Made by a program: the position numbers and the translations under genes. Of a stretch of 34,931 bases of DNA, positions 636-9,522 are shown piece after piece; positions within the stretch are counted from its first letter, which is position 1; each line of letters opens with the position of its first letter. The notes beneath the pieces were generated by a model. The model saw nothing but the letters and a program-made list of their open reading frames with translations. It made no database searches and was not told the DNA's origin. Origin of the DNA: Nitrospira sp. (GTDB lineage Bacteria > Nitrospirota > Nitrospiria > Nitrospirales > Nitrospiraceae); assembly GCA_015903995.1 (NCBI GenBank), contig JABMDK010000002.1, positions 238,189 to 273,119 on the forward strand. Reading direction: 5' to 3'.

Positions 636-2642
636 ATGACACCCAAAGCCGCCAAAAGAGAGCGCTGGGTAAGGGCACGATCGCTTTCCCAGGCACCCCA
701 GGCCGATGATTGGCAAGGGAAGGCGGTCGAATCGGCAAAAGATAATTTCTTCGCCGAAGCCTTCCGCCTAAGTCCTCACCCGATCGGCATCACGGAACTT
801 GAGACCGGGGTCTGTCTAGAAATCAATGACGCCTGCCTTGCCATATTCGGTTTGTGCCGGGACGAGGTTATCGGAAAGACGACGTTGATGTTGGGTATCT
901 GGCCTGATCCTCATGATCGGGCCAGGCTCATCGATCGATTGAAATCCGAAGGGTCGGTCCGAAATCTTGACGTGTCGATGCGGATGAAGAACGGTGAATT
1001 GCGACAATTCCTCATCTCGACGGACTTGATCACGCTCAGAGGGAAGCCCTGCCTCCTGACGATCGGCAATGACATTACCGAGCGCAAGAGGGTTGAGGAG
1101 GCGTTGCATCGGACTCATGAAGAGTTGGAACAACGCGTCCGGGAAAGAACGGTCGATCTCGAACGAACCAATGCGGCGATGCGAGATAGTGAGGAGCGCT
1201 TCCGTTTATTTATCGAGCATGTGCCGGCTGCGACTGCGATGTTTGACCGTAACATGCGGTATTTGGCGGCCAGTCGCCGTTGGATGGAAGACTATCGCCT
1301 CTCGGGGGCTATCCTTGGCCGATCACACTATGACGTGCTTCCCGCGATCTCATCACGATGGAAGGAGATCCATCGTCGCGGGTTGGCCGGAGAAACTCTG
1401 CGTGCAGATGAAGACCGGTTCGTTCGAGACGATGGTTCCACACAGTGGATCACCTGGGATGTCCGCCCCTGGTATAGCGGCGATGAAGTCGGCGGCATCG
1501 TGATTGCCACGGAAGATGTGACGGCCCGTGTGGAGGCTCAGAACGCCTTGCATGAACGGAAGGAACGGTCCGATCAGGTCATTCAGTTGGCCAACTTCGG
1601 CATTTTCGATCACGATCACCGTACCGGGAAAGTGTATTGGTCTCCCGCGATGAGGGAAATCTACGGAGTGGGACCTAATGATCCAATTTCTTTCGAAGGG
1701 TATATCCAGTTACTCCATCCGGAAGACCGCGAAACAGTCGTTCGGGCGATCAAGCAGGCCCAAGACTCTGCCGGTGACGATCTTTTTTCGGTAGAACACC
1801 GTGTGTTGCACCGCGACGGGAGTGTCCGGTGGGTGAGTTTTCGGTCATGGACGTTATTCGACAATGAATGGCCGGAGCGTCGCCCTACGCGCACCTTGGG
1901 GGCGATGATCGACATTACGAAACGCAAACAGGCGGAGGAGGCGCTCCATCGCAACCAGCTGGAGTTGCATCTGCAGCAAGTGCAACTGGAAGAATTGACG
2001 TCGAAGCTGCTGGCGGCGCAGGAGCATGAGCGGAAGCGAATCGCCCGCGATCTGCACGACGATGTGAGCCAGCGATTGGCTGCCTTAGTCTTGGAAGTCG
2101 CATCCTTGGAACACCGCCCGTCTCCTGTACCCGGTGAACTTGCTCGATCGTTGGCGCCACTTCGTGAACAGTTGGAGCAGCTTTCGGACGATGTACATAC
2201 GCTCGCATACCGGCTTCATCCTTCGTTGCTGGAGCATGCTGGATTGCGCCCGGCGGTCGAAGACCATGTCCATCAGGTTTCTCGGCGCACGGGCTTGCCC
2301 ATTCATCTGAAGATTCTTGATGTTCCGAATGCGGTACCGCTTGATCAGGCGACTTGTCTCTTTCGCGTCATGCAGGAAAGCGTCCAAAATGTGGTGAAAC
2401 ATGCGCAGGCCAAGACCGTGACGGTCCAGCTCCGCGGGTCGTCAAAGGGGGTCGGTCTGTCCGTCATTGATAATGGGAAGGGATTTGACCCACAGGATCT
2501 GCGGGCCCATCAACAAGGGCTGGGATTGAGCAGTATGGAAGAACGGCTGCGACAACTGCACGGGTTCTTTCGAATCCAATCTCGCCCATCCCTCGGCACA
2601 AAGGTCTGTGCGTGGGTGCCTTGCGAGGTGGAGGTCGCATGA
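636..2642 (+). CDS. PAS-domain sensor histidine kinase (HisKA_3/NarX-type, apparently soluble, multiple PAS/PAC)
   Basis: PAS/PAC repeats (e.g. DITERKRVEEAL, DITKRKQAEEAL), phospho-acceptor region RKRIARDLHDDVSQRLAALVLE, HATPase G-boxes (VIDNGKGFDP, GLGLSSMEERL). Confidence 0.93.
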   Translation: MTPKAAKRERWVRARSLSQAPQADDWQGKAVESAKDNFFAEAFRLSPHPIGITELETGVCLEINDACLAIFGLCRDEVIGKTTLMLGIWPDPHDRARLIDRLKSEGSVRNLDVSMRMKNGELRQFLISTDLITLRGKPCLLTIGNDITERKRVEEALHRTHEELEQRVRERTVDLERTNAAMRDSEERFRLFIEHVPAATAMFDRNMRYLAASRRWMEDYRLSGAILGRSHYDVLPAISSRWKEIHRRGLAGETLRADEDRFVRDDGSTQWITWDVRPWYSGDEVGGIVIATEDVTARVEAQNALHERKERSDQVIQLANFGIFDHDHRTGKVYWSPAMREIYGVGPNDPISFEGYIQLLHPEDRETVVRAIKQAQDSAGDDLFSVEHRVLHRDGSVRWVSFRSWTLFDNEWPERRPTRTLGAMIDITKRKQAEEALHRNQLELHLQQVQLEELTSKLLAAQEHERKRIARDLHDDVSQRLAALVLEVASLEHRPSPVPGELARSLAPLREQLEQLSDDVHTLAYRLHPSLLEHAGLRPAVEDHVHQVSRRTGLPIHLKILDVPNAVPLDQATCLFRVMQESVQNVVKHAQAKTVTVQLRGSSKGVGLSVIDNGKGFDPQDLRAHQQGLGLSSMEERLRQLHGFFRIQSRPSLGTKVCAWVPCEVEVA

Positions 2643-3292
2643 GTCGCCCCCGGATCTTGATGGCCGATGATCACGCCATCGTCCTGGCCGGACTTCGGAA
2701 GCTCGTGGAAGCCGAGGGCGAAGTGGTCGGGATGGTGGAGGACGGGCGAGCGTTAGTGGAAGCGGCGCAGCAGCTTCGTCCCGACATCGTGTTATTGGAT
2801 ATCTCGATGCCCTTGCTCAACGGACTCGATGCCGCGCGCCAGATCAGCAAGCTGGTACCGGAGAGCAAGTTGATCTTCCTGACCATGCATGCCACCCCCA
2901 CCTATGCGACCGAAGCTTTTAAGGCCGGGGCCTCTGGCTATCTGATAAAGCGGTCCGCCGCCGTGGAACTGAAGCAAGCCATACAGGCGGTGATGCAGGG
3001 GCAACACTACATGACTCCGCTTATCACGAAAGATGTCTTGGCAGCGACGCTCCAATCCACGGATGGCCAGTCCAATAAGCCGTTAGTGACCTCGCTCACG
3101 CAGCGGCAACGGGAGGTGTTACAGCTCGTTGCCGAAGGAAAAGGTACCAAGGCCATTGCTTCGATCCTGAACATTTCCGTCAAAACCGTCGAGTTTCACA
3201 AGTTTCGCATTATGGGTGAACTCGATCTGCACTCGACTGCCGAGCTAGTCAAATACGCGATCGCCGAAGGCCTTGTAAGCGTGTCGTCGTAA
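2639..3292 (+). CDS. NarL/FixJ-family response regulator with LuxR-type HTH
   Basis: Start ATG overlaps kinase stop (ATGA at 2639); MSRPRILMADDHAIVLAGLRKL receiver; C-terminal TQRQREVLQLVAEGKGTKAIASILNISVKTVEFHKFRIMGEL. Confidence 0.93.
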   Translation: MSRPRILMADDHAIVLAGLRKLVEAEGEVVGMVEDGRALVEAAQQLRPDIVLLDISMPLLNGLDAARQISKLVPESKLIFLTMHATPTYATEAFKAGASGYLIKRSAAVELKQAIQAVMQGQHYMTPLITKDVLAATLQSTDGQSNKPLVTSLTQRQREVLQLVAEGKGTKAIASILNISVKTVEFHKFRIMGELDLHSTAELVKYAIAEGLVSVSS

Positions 3293-3582
3293 TCACGTCC
3301 ACTAGTCCCATCTACTACCCAATGTAGGATCTGATGTTGCTTACTACACCATAATGAATTCGTGTGTCAGTGTTACTATTCAGTACTAGTAATCTCCCCT
3401 CATCTTTCTAGTGGCCTTCCTAGTTCACAAGGTCAGTCATATATCCTTACTATTAGTTAACGAAACAAGCTGTTCGTTTTTATCAGTTGGCGTATGCGGT
3501 ACCTATTCATTTGGGTCTGTAAAAGTCTTCAGTGACAGTTAAAAAGTCGTTGTAATTTTTGATCTTTGTGCGGGAAGGGTGG

Positions 3583-3837
3583 ATGCAAGTTTCAGTAATC
3601 ATAGATCGGGTCTATGGTGCCTTAGAGCAGTTTGGTACGACTTGCTCCATGGAGGACGTGGTTGGGCTTTGTCCAGACCTGACGTGGAACCAGGTGTATC
3701 TCGCAGTTGATTATTTGAGCAAGACCGGCAAGGTTTCTGTCACTCTGGACCCGGACAGGACGTACACCGTCCGGGTCTATCCCGCCGCCGACTCATCTCA
3801 ATTCTCATCCAGACAAGATCACGTCAGTATTGCCTAG
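3583..3837 (+). CDS. Small winged-helix-like conserved hypothetical protein
   Basis: MQVSVIIDRVYGALEQFGTTCSMEDVVGLCPDLTWNQVYLAVDYLSKTGKVSVTLDPDRTYTVRV; helix-turn-helix plus beta-wing-like pattern; start chosen at internal ATG. Confidence 0.6.
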   Translation: MQVSVIIDRVYGALEQFGTTCSMEDVVGLCPDLTWNQVYLAVDYLSKTGKVSVTLDPDRTYTVRVYPAADSSQFSSRQDHVSIA

Positions 3838-5683: not shown

Positions 5684-6006
5684 TAGAAAATGACAGCAAA
5701 ATATACTACTTCCGTATCCGCGCTTGCCACACTGGATCAGTTCACCAGACAGGCTCAAACGGATCCAGACCCTATGTGCTGATCAACCTACTTGACAGCC
5801 GATTTTGTCAGGAATAAATTTGTGCCCCATAAAAATCCCAAAGGGCCATGGGGCCAAGTTGTTGGCTGATATCGCACCTCGTGTCGAGGTCATCGCTTAT
5901 CGGCTGTGTCTGGGGAGAAAGGATATCAGTCGGCCTCAATTCCTTGTGAGGTGTGCCTGTGGGATACCACTTCGTAGCGTGACGGGTCCGGACGAAAGGA
6001 GTAACC

Positions 6007-6090
6007 ATGGATAGTAGCCTCTTAATGTTTGTGATTGTGATGCTCGTGATTTTCATCGGCGGCATCATCGTGTACAAAAAGAGCGCCTAG
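6007..6090 (+). CDS. 27-aa single-transmembrane micropeptide
   Basis: AAAGGAGTAACC-ATG RBS/start; MDSSLLMFVIVMLVIFIGGIIVYKKSA*; paralogous to minus-strand 8256-8336; too short for the ORF track. Confidence 0.65.
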   Translation: MDSSLLMFVIVMLVIFIGGIIVYKKSA

Positions 6091-6264
6091 CTCTTTCCTG
6101 AACTCATTATTATCTCGTGGTAGGGTATCGGCATCTTGCTATGTCAGGGGTGGGGTGTGCGAGGTGAAGGCAGAGCTCCAAGGTGGTGGCTTGCTTCTAG
6201 ATTTTCAGCTTCGGCTGAGTCCTCTTACATTTCACCCACCTACGCATGGAGGAATGCGCAGTGG

Positions 6265-6318
6265 GTGTCCTCCGAAGCCTTGGCGAAGGAGGACACGCTT
6301 CGGCGGGTTCCGCCGAAG
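6265..6318. terminator. Two tandem hairpins downstream of mlaA (possible terminator/REP-like)
   Basis: GTGTCCTCC(6265-6273)/GGAGGACAC(6288-6296) and CTTCGGCGG(6298-6306)/CCGCCGAAG(6310-6318), both perfect. Confidence 0.5.
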
Positions 6319-6469
6319 ACACAAAAGGGACCACGGCAAGCCGTGAGGCTCCACTGTTGATAGGTACCTCTGACAAGAAGTTTACCTGTGCCTGCCGAGC
6401 GAATACGAGATCGGTTGGAGGAAAGGGCTGTAGAAAAAGCGGGTTGCAGACGATGACTGGTCGCCGGGG

Positions 6470-7396
6470 CTATTCTCGAATGGCTTTGGTTCGTTTTTGC
6501 AGATAGGCATTACGGACTGCGGCATAGAGATCCAATGTAGATTCTTCAACACCCTGAAACTTTTCCAAATTCAGGGAGCGTTCGTTTACGACCTCGGTCG
6601 CACGCGCGCCAAGCGATATGCCATAGGTGAGCGCCCGCTCATCGATATCGACCACTGTCGGAATCGAATCGATGTTATGCATAGTCGGCAGGATAAGCCA
6701 GTAAATCGGATTGAGGGCGATGTCTCCGGCGTAGCCGGCAAGGTCCCGAACTGTGTAGGGTCCTAAAATCGGCACCATGATATAAGGACCTGGTGGAACA
6801 CCATAAAATCCAAGCGTTTGTCCTGTATCCTCTTCCGGTGTCGTGAGATTGAACCGCTGAGCCACATCGAAAAATCCGCCGATCCCGACCGTCGTATTAA
6901 TGAGAAATCGTCCAACTTCGATCCCGGCTCCTTTGAATTTTCCCTGAAACACATTGTTTATGAATCGTGGGGTCGCACGACTATTGTAGAAGATGTTGCT
7001 GACGCCGACCTGGACGATATTGGGAACGACGTAGTTGTATCCTTTGGCGATTGGTTTCAGCACCCACCGATCGAGCTGCCGGTTGAATTCAAAGAACTTG
7101 GTATTGAGCGGTTCCCAAGGGTCATATTCATCGACCCCTTCTTCGCCTGGTTTGGAAAACGGATCGAGTGGTTCTTCAGAAGATGCGTCGTTGGCTGGTG
7201 CCGCTGACGGAGTCAGCTTGGGGTCGGCATCAGCGACAAGAACCGGCTGAGCGTTCTGTCCCATGTGCGGTGTGAGAGAGTTTGCCGAGCCCTTTTGAGT
7301 AACGCAACCTGAGAGCACGATCAATAAGACGGCAAGAATGAGTCCATATTCACTCTGTCTGAAGCGGGCCGGCCTACACACAGCTATTGTCTTCAT
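6470..7396 (-). CDS. mlaA: MlaA/VacJ-family outer-membrane lipoprotein
   Basis: Lipobox-like LIVLSGC; DPWEPLNTKFFEFNRQLDRWVLKPIAKGYNYVVP, FINNVFQGKFKGAGIEVGRFLINTTVGIGGFFDVA, GPYIMVPILGPYTVRDLAG. Confidence 0.93.
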   Translation of the reverse strand: MKTIAVCRPARFRQSEYGLILAVLLIVLSGCVTQKGSANSLTPHMGQNAQPVLVADADPKLTPSAAPANDASSEEPLDPFSKPGEEGVDEYDPWEPLNTKFFEFNRQLDRWVLKPIAKGYNYVVPNIVQVGVSNIFYNSRATPRFINNVFQGKFKGAGIEVGRFLINTTVGIGGFFDVAQRFNLTTPEEDTGQTLGFYGVPPGPYIMVPILGPYTVRDLAGYAGDIALNPIYWLILPTMHNIDSIPTVVDIDERALTYGISLGARATEVVNERSLNLEKFQGVEESTLDLYAAVRNAYLQKRTKAIRE

Positions 7397-7788
7397 CCTT
7401 CGGATAATCCTCTAGTAGAGTAACAAAATGAGTACGGAATGTGCGGTGCCGCACTCTACCAAAAAAGTTGAGTCACCCGCCAATCAAATATTTCTGAATT
7501 GTTCTTGTGGAAGGAGGCCGTAGTCTCCGAGCCCAGTCATCTCTTGGAGTCTTGAGGTAAGCAGGTAACAGCGGAGATGAGCGGTGTTTAGCGAAGCGTG
7601 GGTTCAGGGGATCGGTGCAGGTCGTGCGGGGAGCGTCTCGACCACGGTCACGCTCCAGACGCTTATCCGGTTTTAGTACGTGAAGAAGCCACCACGAACC
7701 ATTCGGCGGATGGGACTCACGACGGACGGCTCTTTCTCCTCGACGAAAGCGCTCCAGTTCATGACCAAACAGTTCGCGGCCAAGCCTG

Positions 7789-8070
7789 ATGCAAGCCGCT
7801 CGCGATTCTGCTGGCCCCTATTACACCGTTTCCGTGCTGCACAATGATGAAGGGGGCGGGAGAGTAATTGCTTGCGCAGGACGCGTCAAGACAGAAAAAG
7901 TTGGGTATTGCGTCGGGCAGTTTCCCTGTGTGGGACCAACCGCTGCGGAGATCATGAATGTGGTCGCTCAAGGACAGCCGGGTGCCTCGAGGAAACTTGC
8001 CCAACAGGGTGCCTGTTCCATTCTCGGATTGAGTCGCGAGCCCATCAATCGGCAATGCACACAGACATAA
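7789..8070 (+). CDS. Hypothetical protein
   Basis: 93-codon ORF ending 1 nt before a strong hairpin (8072-8106); no recognised family. Confidence 0.35.
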   Translation: MQAARDSAGPYYTVSVLHNDEGGGRVIACAGRVKTEKVGYCVGQFPCVGPTAAEIMNVVAQGQPGASRKLAQQGACSILGLSREPINRQCTQT

Positions 8071-8071
8071 G

Positions 8072-8106
8072 ACCATCGTGCGTCTCCGAGAGACACACAC
8101 GATGGT
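8072..8106. terminator. Hairpin between convergent ORFs (possible bidirectional terminator)
   Basis: ACCATCGTG (8072-8080)/CACGATGGT (8098-8106) with inner GTCTC/GAGAC stem; no clear T-tract. Confidence 0.45.
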
Positions 8107-8255
8107 ATTCATCAGAGGAGGGTTCAACAAAACGAAAGATTCTCTACCTTGAAAAACATCTCTACCAGCCGGACGGCGCTACACTACCGCACAAAAGTAC
8201 CTCTCAGAAAGATGAGGCCTCTCTGCAGGAGGATGCCCAATGCTGGGCCGGCGAA

Positions 8256-8336
8256 CTACGCACTCTTTTTGTACGCAATCAACCCAGCGATGAGGAGTGC
8301 GCCCATCACACCCGTGAACAGCCACAACATATCCAT
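8256..8336 (-). CDS. 26-aa single-transmembrane micropeptide (paralogue of 6007-6090)
   Basis: Reverse complement: AAAGGAGCCGTT-ATG RBS/start; MDMLWLFTGVMGALLIAGLIAYKKSA*; shared MD start, single hydrophobic segment and YKKSA end. Confidence 0.65.
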   Translation of the reverse strand: MDMLWLFTGVMGALLIAGLIAYKKSA

Positions 8337-8571
8337 AACGGCTCCTTTCAGTTGGAAAAACGACAAACCATTACATCCGTAGCGGAGCAACTCTTGTGCT
8401 TGCCTTGACAGAAGACGATGGTCCCTAACCTCCTAAAAAAATGTGGTCGTAACACCCTATATGCCAAACGTATTCAATGAACTGGGGAGAATGTCGTCAA
8501 GGCTGTCTAGTCATCTGGACAGACAGAAGGGATAGAATAATGGAGTGCCGGGAATGTCTTGACGGAAGCAG

Positions 8572-9522
8572 CTAAAACGAGATCAGACGGTCACGTCCAT
8601 GGGGCGTCGATAAGTCTTGCTCGGGGCCGATCGGGACGATGCGGGTCGGGTTGATGTCATCGTGCGTGACGTAGTAGTGGCGTTTGATGTGGTCGATATT
8701 CACGGTCTCGGCAATGCCGTCGGTTTGGTAGAGATCTTTCAGATACCCGAACAGATTTGGGTAGTCGACGATTCGTCGGAGATTGCATTTGAAATGGCCA
8801 TGGTACACGGCGTCGAACCGAACCAACGTGACAAAAAGCCGCCAGTCGGTTTCCACAAACTCCGGGCCGAACAGATACCGACGCGTTGCCAGGCGAGCAT
8901 CGAGTTGATCCAGTGCGGTAAATAATCGACGGGCCGCTCGTTCATAGGCCTGTTGAGAGGTGGCGAACCCTGCGCGATAGACTCCATCGTTCACATTCTC
9001 GTAGATGAACGTGTTGAGCTCGTCGATCTCTTGCCGCAGTCCATCCGGGTACAAATCGATCGGGCTTTCGGTGAATCGATTGAACTCACCATTGAAGATT
9101 CTCATCAAATCGTCATCGGAGTTGGTGACGATGCGTTTGGTGAGGGAGTCCCACAGTACGGGGACAGTTATGCGTCCGATATAGTTCGAATCCGTCGCTT
9201 TATAGGCTTCTCGAAGAAATTGGAAGCCATTGATGGGGTCTGGGGAATGGCCTGCTCCTTCGCGAAACGCCCATCCTCGCTCGTCACGAATGGGATCCAC
9301 GGCGGTCATACCGATCACAGCCTCAAGTTTCTTGAGTTTACGCACAATGATTGTGCGGTGAGCCCAGGGGCAGGCCCATGACACGTAGAGATGGTAGCGG
9401 CCGGCTGCGGCGGGATAGCCTGAACTGCCGTCCGCTGTCACCCACCTTCGGAATACATCCGGCTGACGCATAAACTCACCGGCTGACGATTGTTCGCCTG
9501 GAAACTGGGCTTGAACTTCCAT
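8572..9522 (-). CDS. yqjG: Glutathionyl-hydroquinone reductase (GST superfamily, YqjG/ECM4-like)
   Basis: GRYHLYVSWACPWAHRTIIVRKLKKLE, IGRITVPVLWDSLTKRIVTNSDDDLMRIFN, LFGPEFVETDWRLFVTLVRFDAVYHGHFKCN. Confidence 0.92.
   Translation of the reverse strand: MEVQAQFPGEQSSAGEFMRQPDVFRRWVTADGSSGYPAAAGRYHLYVSWACPWAHRTIIVRKLKKLEAVIGMTAVDPIRDERGWAFREGAGHSPDPINGFQFLREAYKATDSNYIGRITVPVLWDSLTKRIVTNSDDDLMRIFNGEFNRFTESPIDLYPDGLRQEIDELNTFIYENVNDGVYRAGFATSQQAYERAARRLFTALDQLDARLATRRYLFGPEFVETDWRLFVTLVRFDAVYHGHFKCNLRRIVDYPNLFGYLKDLYQTDGIAETVNIDHIKRHYYVTHDDINPTRIVPIGPEQDLSTPHGRDRLISF

Follow-up and report, generated by a model that had tools for sequence, protein, structure and literature searches.

Introduction

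Several described membrane proteins resemble the peptides reported here, and the nearest functional parallel found is YohP of E. coli. YohP is 27 amino acids long, lies mainly in an N-out/C-in orientation, dimerises via a glycine in its helix, is tied to starvation and stress, and lowers membrane potential and metabolism (PMC12719787, PMC7549839). The Nitrospira peptides share its length, its one helix and the helix glycine, together with a cytoplasmic C-terminus, which is predicted here, and a possible role in stress. Lysines stand on both sides of the YohP helix, whereas in the Nitrospira family the N-terminus is acidic and the tail is Y-K-K, and the family occurs as several syntenic paralogues per genome. 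The comparison is one of features; no sequence homology is claimed.

KdpF is similar in size to the family peptides and also has a single helix, but the family genes stand alone, and no kdp genes were identified beside the copies. AcrZ, the single-helix partner of an RND pump, is longer than the family peptides, and although an RND system lies near one class of family genes (class A), no pump is adjacent to the other classes. CydX, a subunit of cytochrome bd oxidase, is another single-helix small membrane protein and is encoded in cydAB operons (PMC4325964), but no cyd genes were identified near the family copies.

Results

Two small ORFs flank mlaA

The window (the whole 35-kb stretch of Nitrospira DNA that was analysed) contains two tiny ORFs that the initial annotation had reported with AAAGGAG sites and mlaA between them, and the translations and coordinates were exactly as it described (Table 1). 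The genes, designated class A and class B, lie convergently on opposite strands, ~2.2 kb apart, with mlaA inside the interval. In both, five bases separate AAAGGAG from the ATG, and both genes are below the size that ordinary gene finders detect. When the 35-kb window was scanned for ORFs of 18-60 codons that carry a Shine-Dalgarno-like site and encode a strongly hydrophobic segment, the class A and class B genes were returned, along with in-frame longer and shorter forms of the class A ORF and only two others, near 60 codons each and dissimilar to the family peptides. Because such ORFs were rare in the scan, and because many relatives keep the same arrangement and purifying selection acts on it, the pair in the window exceeds chance expectation.

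Table 1. Features of the peptide loci and their neighbourhood, numbered from the first base of the window.
Feature	Position	Strand	Remarks
PAS histidine kinase	636..2642	+	conserved neighbourhood
LuxR-type response regulator	2612..3292	+	conserved neighbourhood
~91-aa conserved protein without family	3559..3837	+	precedes class B in many relatives
Conserved class B leader	5969..6002	+	possible pairing of ACUUC with GGAGU, covering the Shine-Dalgarno site; candidate hairpin
Shine-Dalgarno AAAGGAG, class B gene	5995..6001	+	identical in all 20 aligned class B leaders
Class B peptide gene, MDSSLLMFVIVMLVIFIGGIIVYKKSA	6007..6090	+	translation agrees letter for letter
mlaA, outer-membrane lipid-asymmetry lipoprotein	6470..7396	-	Pfam PF04333, E 1.8e-68
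Two-domain universal stress protein gene, decayed remnant	7629..8025	+	fragments in different frames; intact there in many relatives
Class A peptide gene, MDMLWLFTGVMGALLIAGLIAYKKSA	8256..8336	-	translation agrees letter for letter
Shine-Dalgarno AAAGGAG, class A gene	8342..8348	-	five bases before the ATG
Glutathione-S-transferase-like gene	8572..9522	-	upstream of and co-directional with class A; conserved neighbour

The peptides form a family in Nitrospira

When 60 related genomes were searched with a single sequence, 27 gave matches, every one of them in the same genus. With a family profile built from 19 peptides, strong relatives were found in 63 of 80 genus genomes (those whose best E fell below 1e-6); 71 of the 80 matched at E up to 1, those beyond the 63 being weak. 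The profile also bore out the true paralogy proposed for the two peptides, with up to six copies per genome and six credible copies in the genome of the window itself. Nearly all named loci carrying relatives bore the label Nitrospira or Nitrospirae. When 396 genomes from the whole phylum were searched, matches were confined to the genus, save one marginal match (E 0.0096) within a 405-residue frame that is most likely due to chance.

Viral contigs searched with the family profile, and plasmids searched with a class B query, yielded no relative. Pfam, NCBIfam, PHROGs, PADLOC, PDB sequences and Rfam gave no credible match, matches in the homology libraries being low and inconsistent, as expected of a generic helix plus lysines. 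Searches of the literature on Nitrospira small membrane proteins, and for the peptide letters, found nothing relevant. Judged from these sequence comparisons, the family is specific to Nitrospira, kept as a protein in most of the genus and found nowhere else among the genomes searched. As far as the libraries searched show, it is undescribed; its broad kind, small single-helix membrane proteins, is already known. By hydropathy, the peptides (26-27 residues, one predicted transmembrane helix) fall within the general class of bacterial small membrane proteins, which have fewer than 50 residues and a single predicted helix, and they share with that class conservation as coding sequence.

Selection acts on the coding sequence

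The omega values obtained were 0.139 for class A peptides of 26 amino acids (35 distinct sequences), 0.084 for class A peptides of 27 amino acids and 0.208 for class B peptides of 27 amino acids. Codon position 3 diverged more than positions 1 and 2 in each class A and class B group, an excess reached by 0 of 10000 column permutations. Classes A and B are under purifying selection on their amino acids. The 26-aa class C group gave an omega of 0.405, a value to be read with caution because the group contains one C-terminally truncated, out-of-register sequence.

Conservation might instead be driven by a regulatory RNA or leader, the ORF being incidental, and the class B leader is indeed about as conserved as its ORF. 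That explanation is scarcely credible given that several classes show third-position bias and a low omega, that start, stop and length are conserved, and that the peptide is retained where leaders differ between classes. Profile matches in 63 of 80 genomes, omega of 0.08-0.21 and 0 of 10000 permutations thus uphold the earlier proposal of a small-membrane-protein family under selection rather than a product of chance. That proposal had been made to depend on related genomes, in which the orthologues keep the start codon, ribosome-binding site and tail and show synonymous-site bias. On these comparisons, both ORFs are almost certainly genuine members of a real protein family of small membrane peptides.

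Helix and tail

The peptides share a plan of an acidic N-terminus (MD or ME), a predicted transmembrane helix and a Y-K-K tail, the figures given here resting on 81 distinct peptides (about 27 effective). The tail residues hardly vary (weighted frequencies: Y 96%, K 90%, K 96%), and the two residues that follow are variable (SA, SV, SQ, GA, GQ). The conserved, positively charged tail noted in the initial annotation therefore stands as Y-K-K, but YKKSA does not stand as a strict ending; its identity in the two window peptides is partly coincidence, since orthologues of both genes often end otherwise. Within the helix, the F is invariant and the second G reaches 94%.

The conservation moment along the helix peaked at 100 degrees, with 81 of 10000 permutations reaching the observed value, and the conserved F, V/M, L, G-G and V cluster on a single helix face. 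This one-sided conservation, as expected of a helix that makes contact through a single face, points to a putative helix-helix contact, the test being one that does not tell self-association from partner binding. By the positive-inside rule, the acidic start and the two lysines after the helix predict an N-out/C-in orientation.

Gene neighbourhoods

Class A genes lie about 240 bp downstream of the glutathione-S-transferase (GST)-like gene on the same strand and converge on the two-domain universal stress protein gene where that is present (Usp, E 5.3e-44). In the window the latter is a decayed remnant, but the two peptide genes are intact, so the peptides are independent of the universal stress protein. 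An HlyD-family/RND pair is divergent from the GST-like gene beside class A. Class B genes converge on mlaA, roughly 150 to 380 bp apart, in 42 hits with mlaA as the downstream neighbour, a count that includes some overlapping fetches of one locus. At some loci mlaA occurs without a class B gene (e.g. L062, L073, L118).

The class B and mlaA unit was repeated in the genome of the window, just before the window (L102 8530-9827) and on a small contig (L104 488-1639). A histidine kinase and regulator pair lies between the first of these and the window's own unit. Tandem class A peptides were seen at L110 (8397-8474 and 8928-9005, about 530 bp apart).

Class C is sited elsewhere, following a row of proteins most of which are exported, and a cytochrome c is close by. 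The row itself is conserved (L089 2324-5374 and relatives), and the representatives scanned carried no family name except for one weak amine-oxidase-like match. Class D, of the MDVNTLTFAFVIVALGIGGVIVYLKGR type, is found at further sites (e.g. L122 9310-9393); its loci are unlinked, and a few kb from some of them lies a LuxR-type regulator, a UbiA gene or a conserved protein of 98 aa. A divergent type with a longer tail (YKKGQQ) was observed at L129 9169-9258 and L125 9356-9451, the L125 copy being near a phage-type integrase.

No cyd or kdpABC genes were identified among the neighbour clusters scanned for any copy, and the copies adjoin unrelated genes, so that the CydX/KdpF-like subunit first suggested for the peptides is unsupported. 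Identity with CydX was rejected on genomic context, and identity with KdpF on genomic context and on the lack of a Pfam or NCBIfam match.

Leaders and RNA

The class B leader was strongly conserved to about 45 bases before the start. Its candidate hairpin encloses a second short helix, and the pairing bases are nearly invariant; no covariation was found in the aligned leaders, and because the paired bases hardly vary, covariation neither supports nor refutes the hairpin. Leader RNAs folded no better than shuffled sequence, and similarity of leaders over several classes, sought as a common motif, was barely above shuffled. The sigma-70 promoter scan gave no more matches than chance, and Rfam gave no match for the peptide loci.

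These results bear on whether the peptides could be type I toxins such as TisB, that is, membrane-damaging peptides whose mRNA is silenced by antisense RNA. The small size, the hydrophobic helix with its basic, lysine-bearing end, the multiple copies with one tandem pair, and a leader hairpin that may cover the class B Shine-Dalgarno site would all suit a toxin. Position, however, is conserved genus-wide under strong selection, unlike that of mobile addiction modules; the viral contigs and plasmids searched hold no relative, the leaders fold as shuffles do, and the hairpin lacks covariation. Since synteny is genus-wide and no antisense RNA was identified (Rfam), we consider a type I toxin unlikely.

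Genomes without the peptides

Ten of the genus genomes without strong matches were examined; the GST-like gene was present in 10 of 10 and mlaA was found in all but one. The two genes were several hundred kb apart in the single-contig genomes G061 and G023, and on separate contigs in drafts. In these ten genomes and five sister-genus genomes, small hydrophobic ORFs with a Shine-Dalgarno site were sought up to about 1.5 kb from the GST-like gene and from mlaA, the window serving as positive control, and no peptide was found. In a tree of the GST-like protein, five of the peptide-lacking genus genomes were nested, in two groups, among peptide-bearing ones, several of the relevant forks having modest or weak support. 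This nesting suggests that the absences reflect loss rather than late gain.

Discussion

By analogy with YohP, the mechanism that fits best, though we would put it at somewhat less than an even chance, is a stress-linked inner-membrane helix, N-out/C-in, which dimerises or binds a partner. The Y-K-K tail would lie in the cytoplasm and the acidic end would face the periplasm, while the conserved F, V/M, L, G-G, V face would pack the helix on itself, on a paralogue or on a membrane partner. The peptide would be made during envelope or oxidative stress and would tune the inner membrane or a protein within it, after the fashion of YohP in E. coli. This mechanism is favoured by the stress and envelope neighbours of classes A and B, namely the GST-like protein, the universal stress protein, mlaA, and the histidine kinase with its regulator. 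Guilt by association of this sort is weak, because the neighbours vary from class to class. The envelope-stress peptide suggested in the initial annotation is compatible with the same surroundings (mlaA, universal stress protein, GST-like protein and two-component system).

The main rival, possible but doubtful, is that each peptide serves one particular membrane protein as its accessory subunit or regulator, as AcrZ and MgrB do; this might be the RND pump beside class A or a sensor kinase beside class B. A protein partner would be in keeping with the conserved helix face, and candidates are at hand in the HlyD-family/RND pair near class A and the histidine kinase near class B. Paralogues with one common motif nevertheless adjoin different genes, classes C and D were not seen beside the pump, and a simple hydropathy scan of the window kinase showed no transmembrane segment. 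The genes directly adjoining encode soluble or outer-membrane proteins, and each peptide gene is solitary rather than within an operon.

An extension of the stress-linked helix, which we think quite improbable, is that the paralogue classes are homo- and heterodimerising inner-membrane helices, each triggered by a different local stress, which would lower membrane energisation or adjust the envelope under stress in a graded, genus-specific way.

Nitrospira are major nitrite oxidisers, some of them complete ammonia oxidisers, and are slow-growing and hard to manipulate. The family, which most species of the genus carry in several copies, lends itself to proteomics and to heterologous experiments on the function of 26-residue membrane helices.
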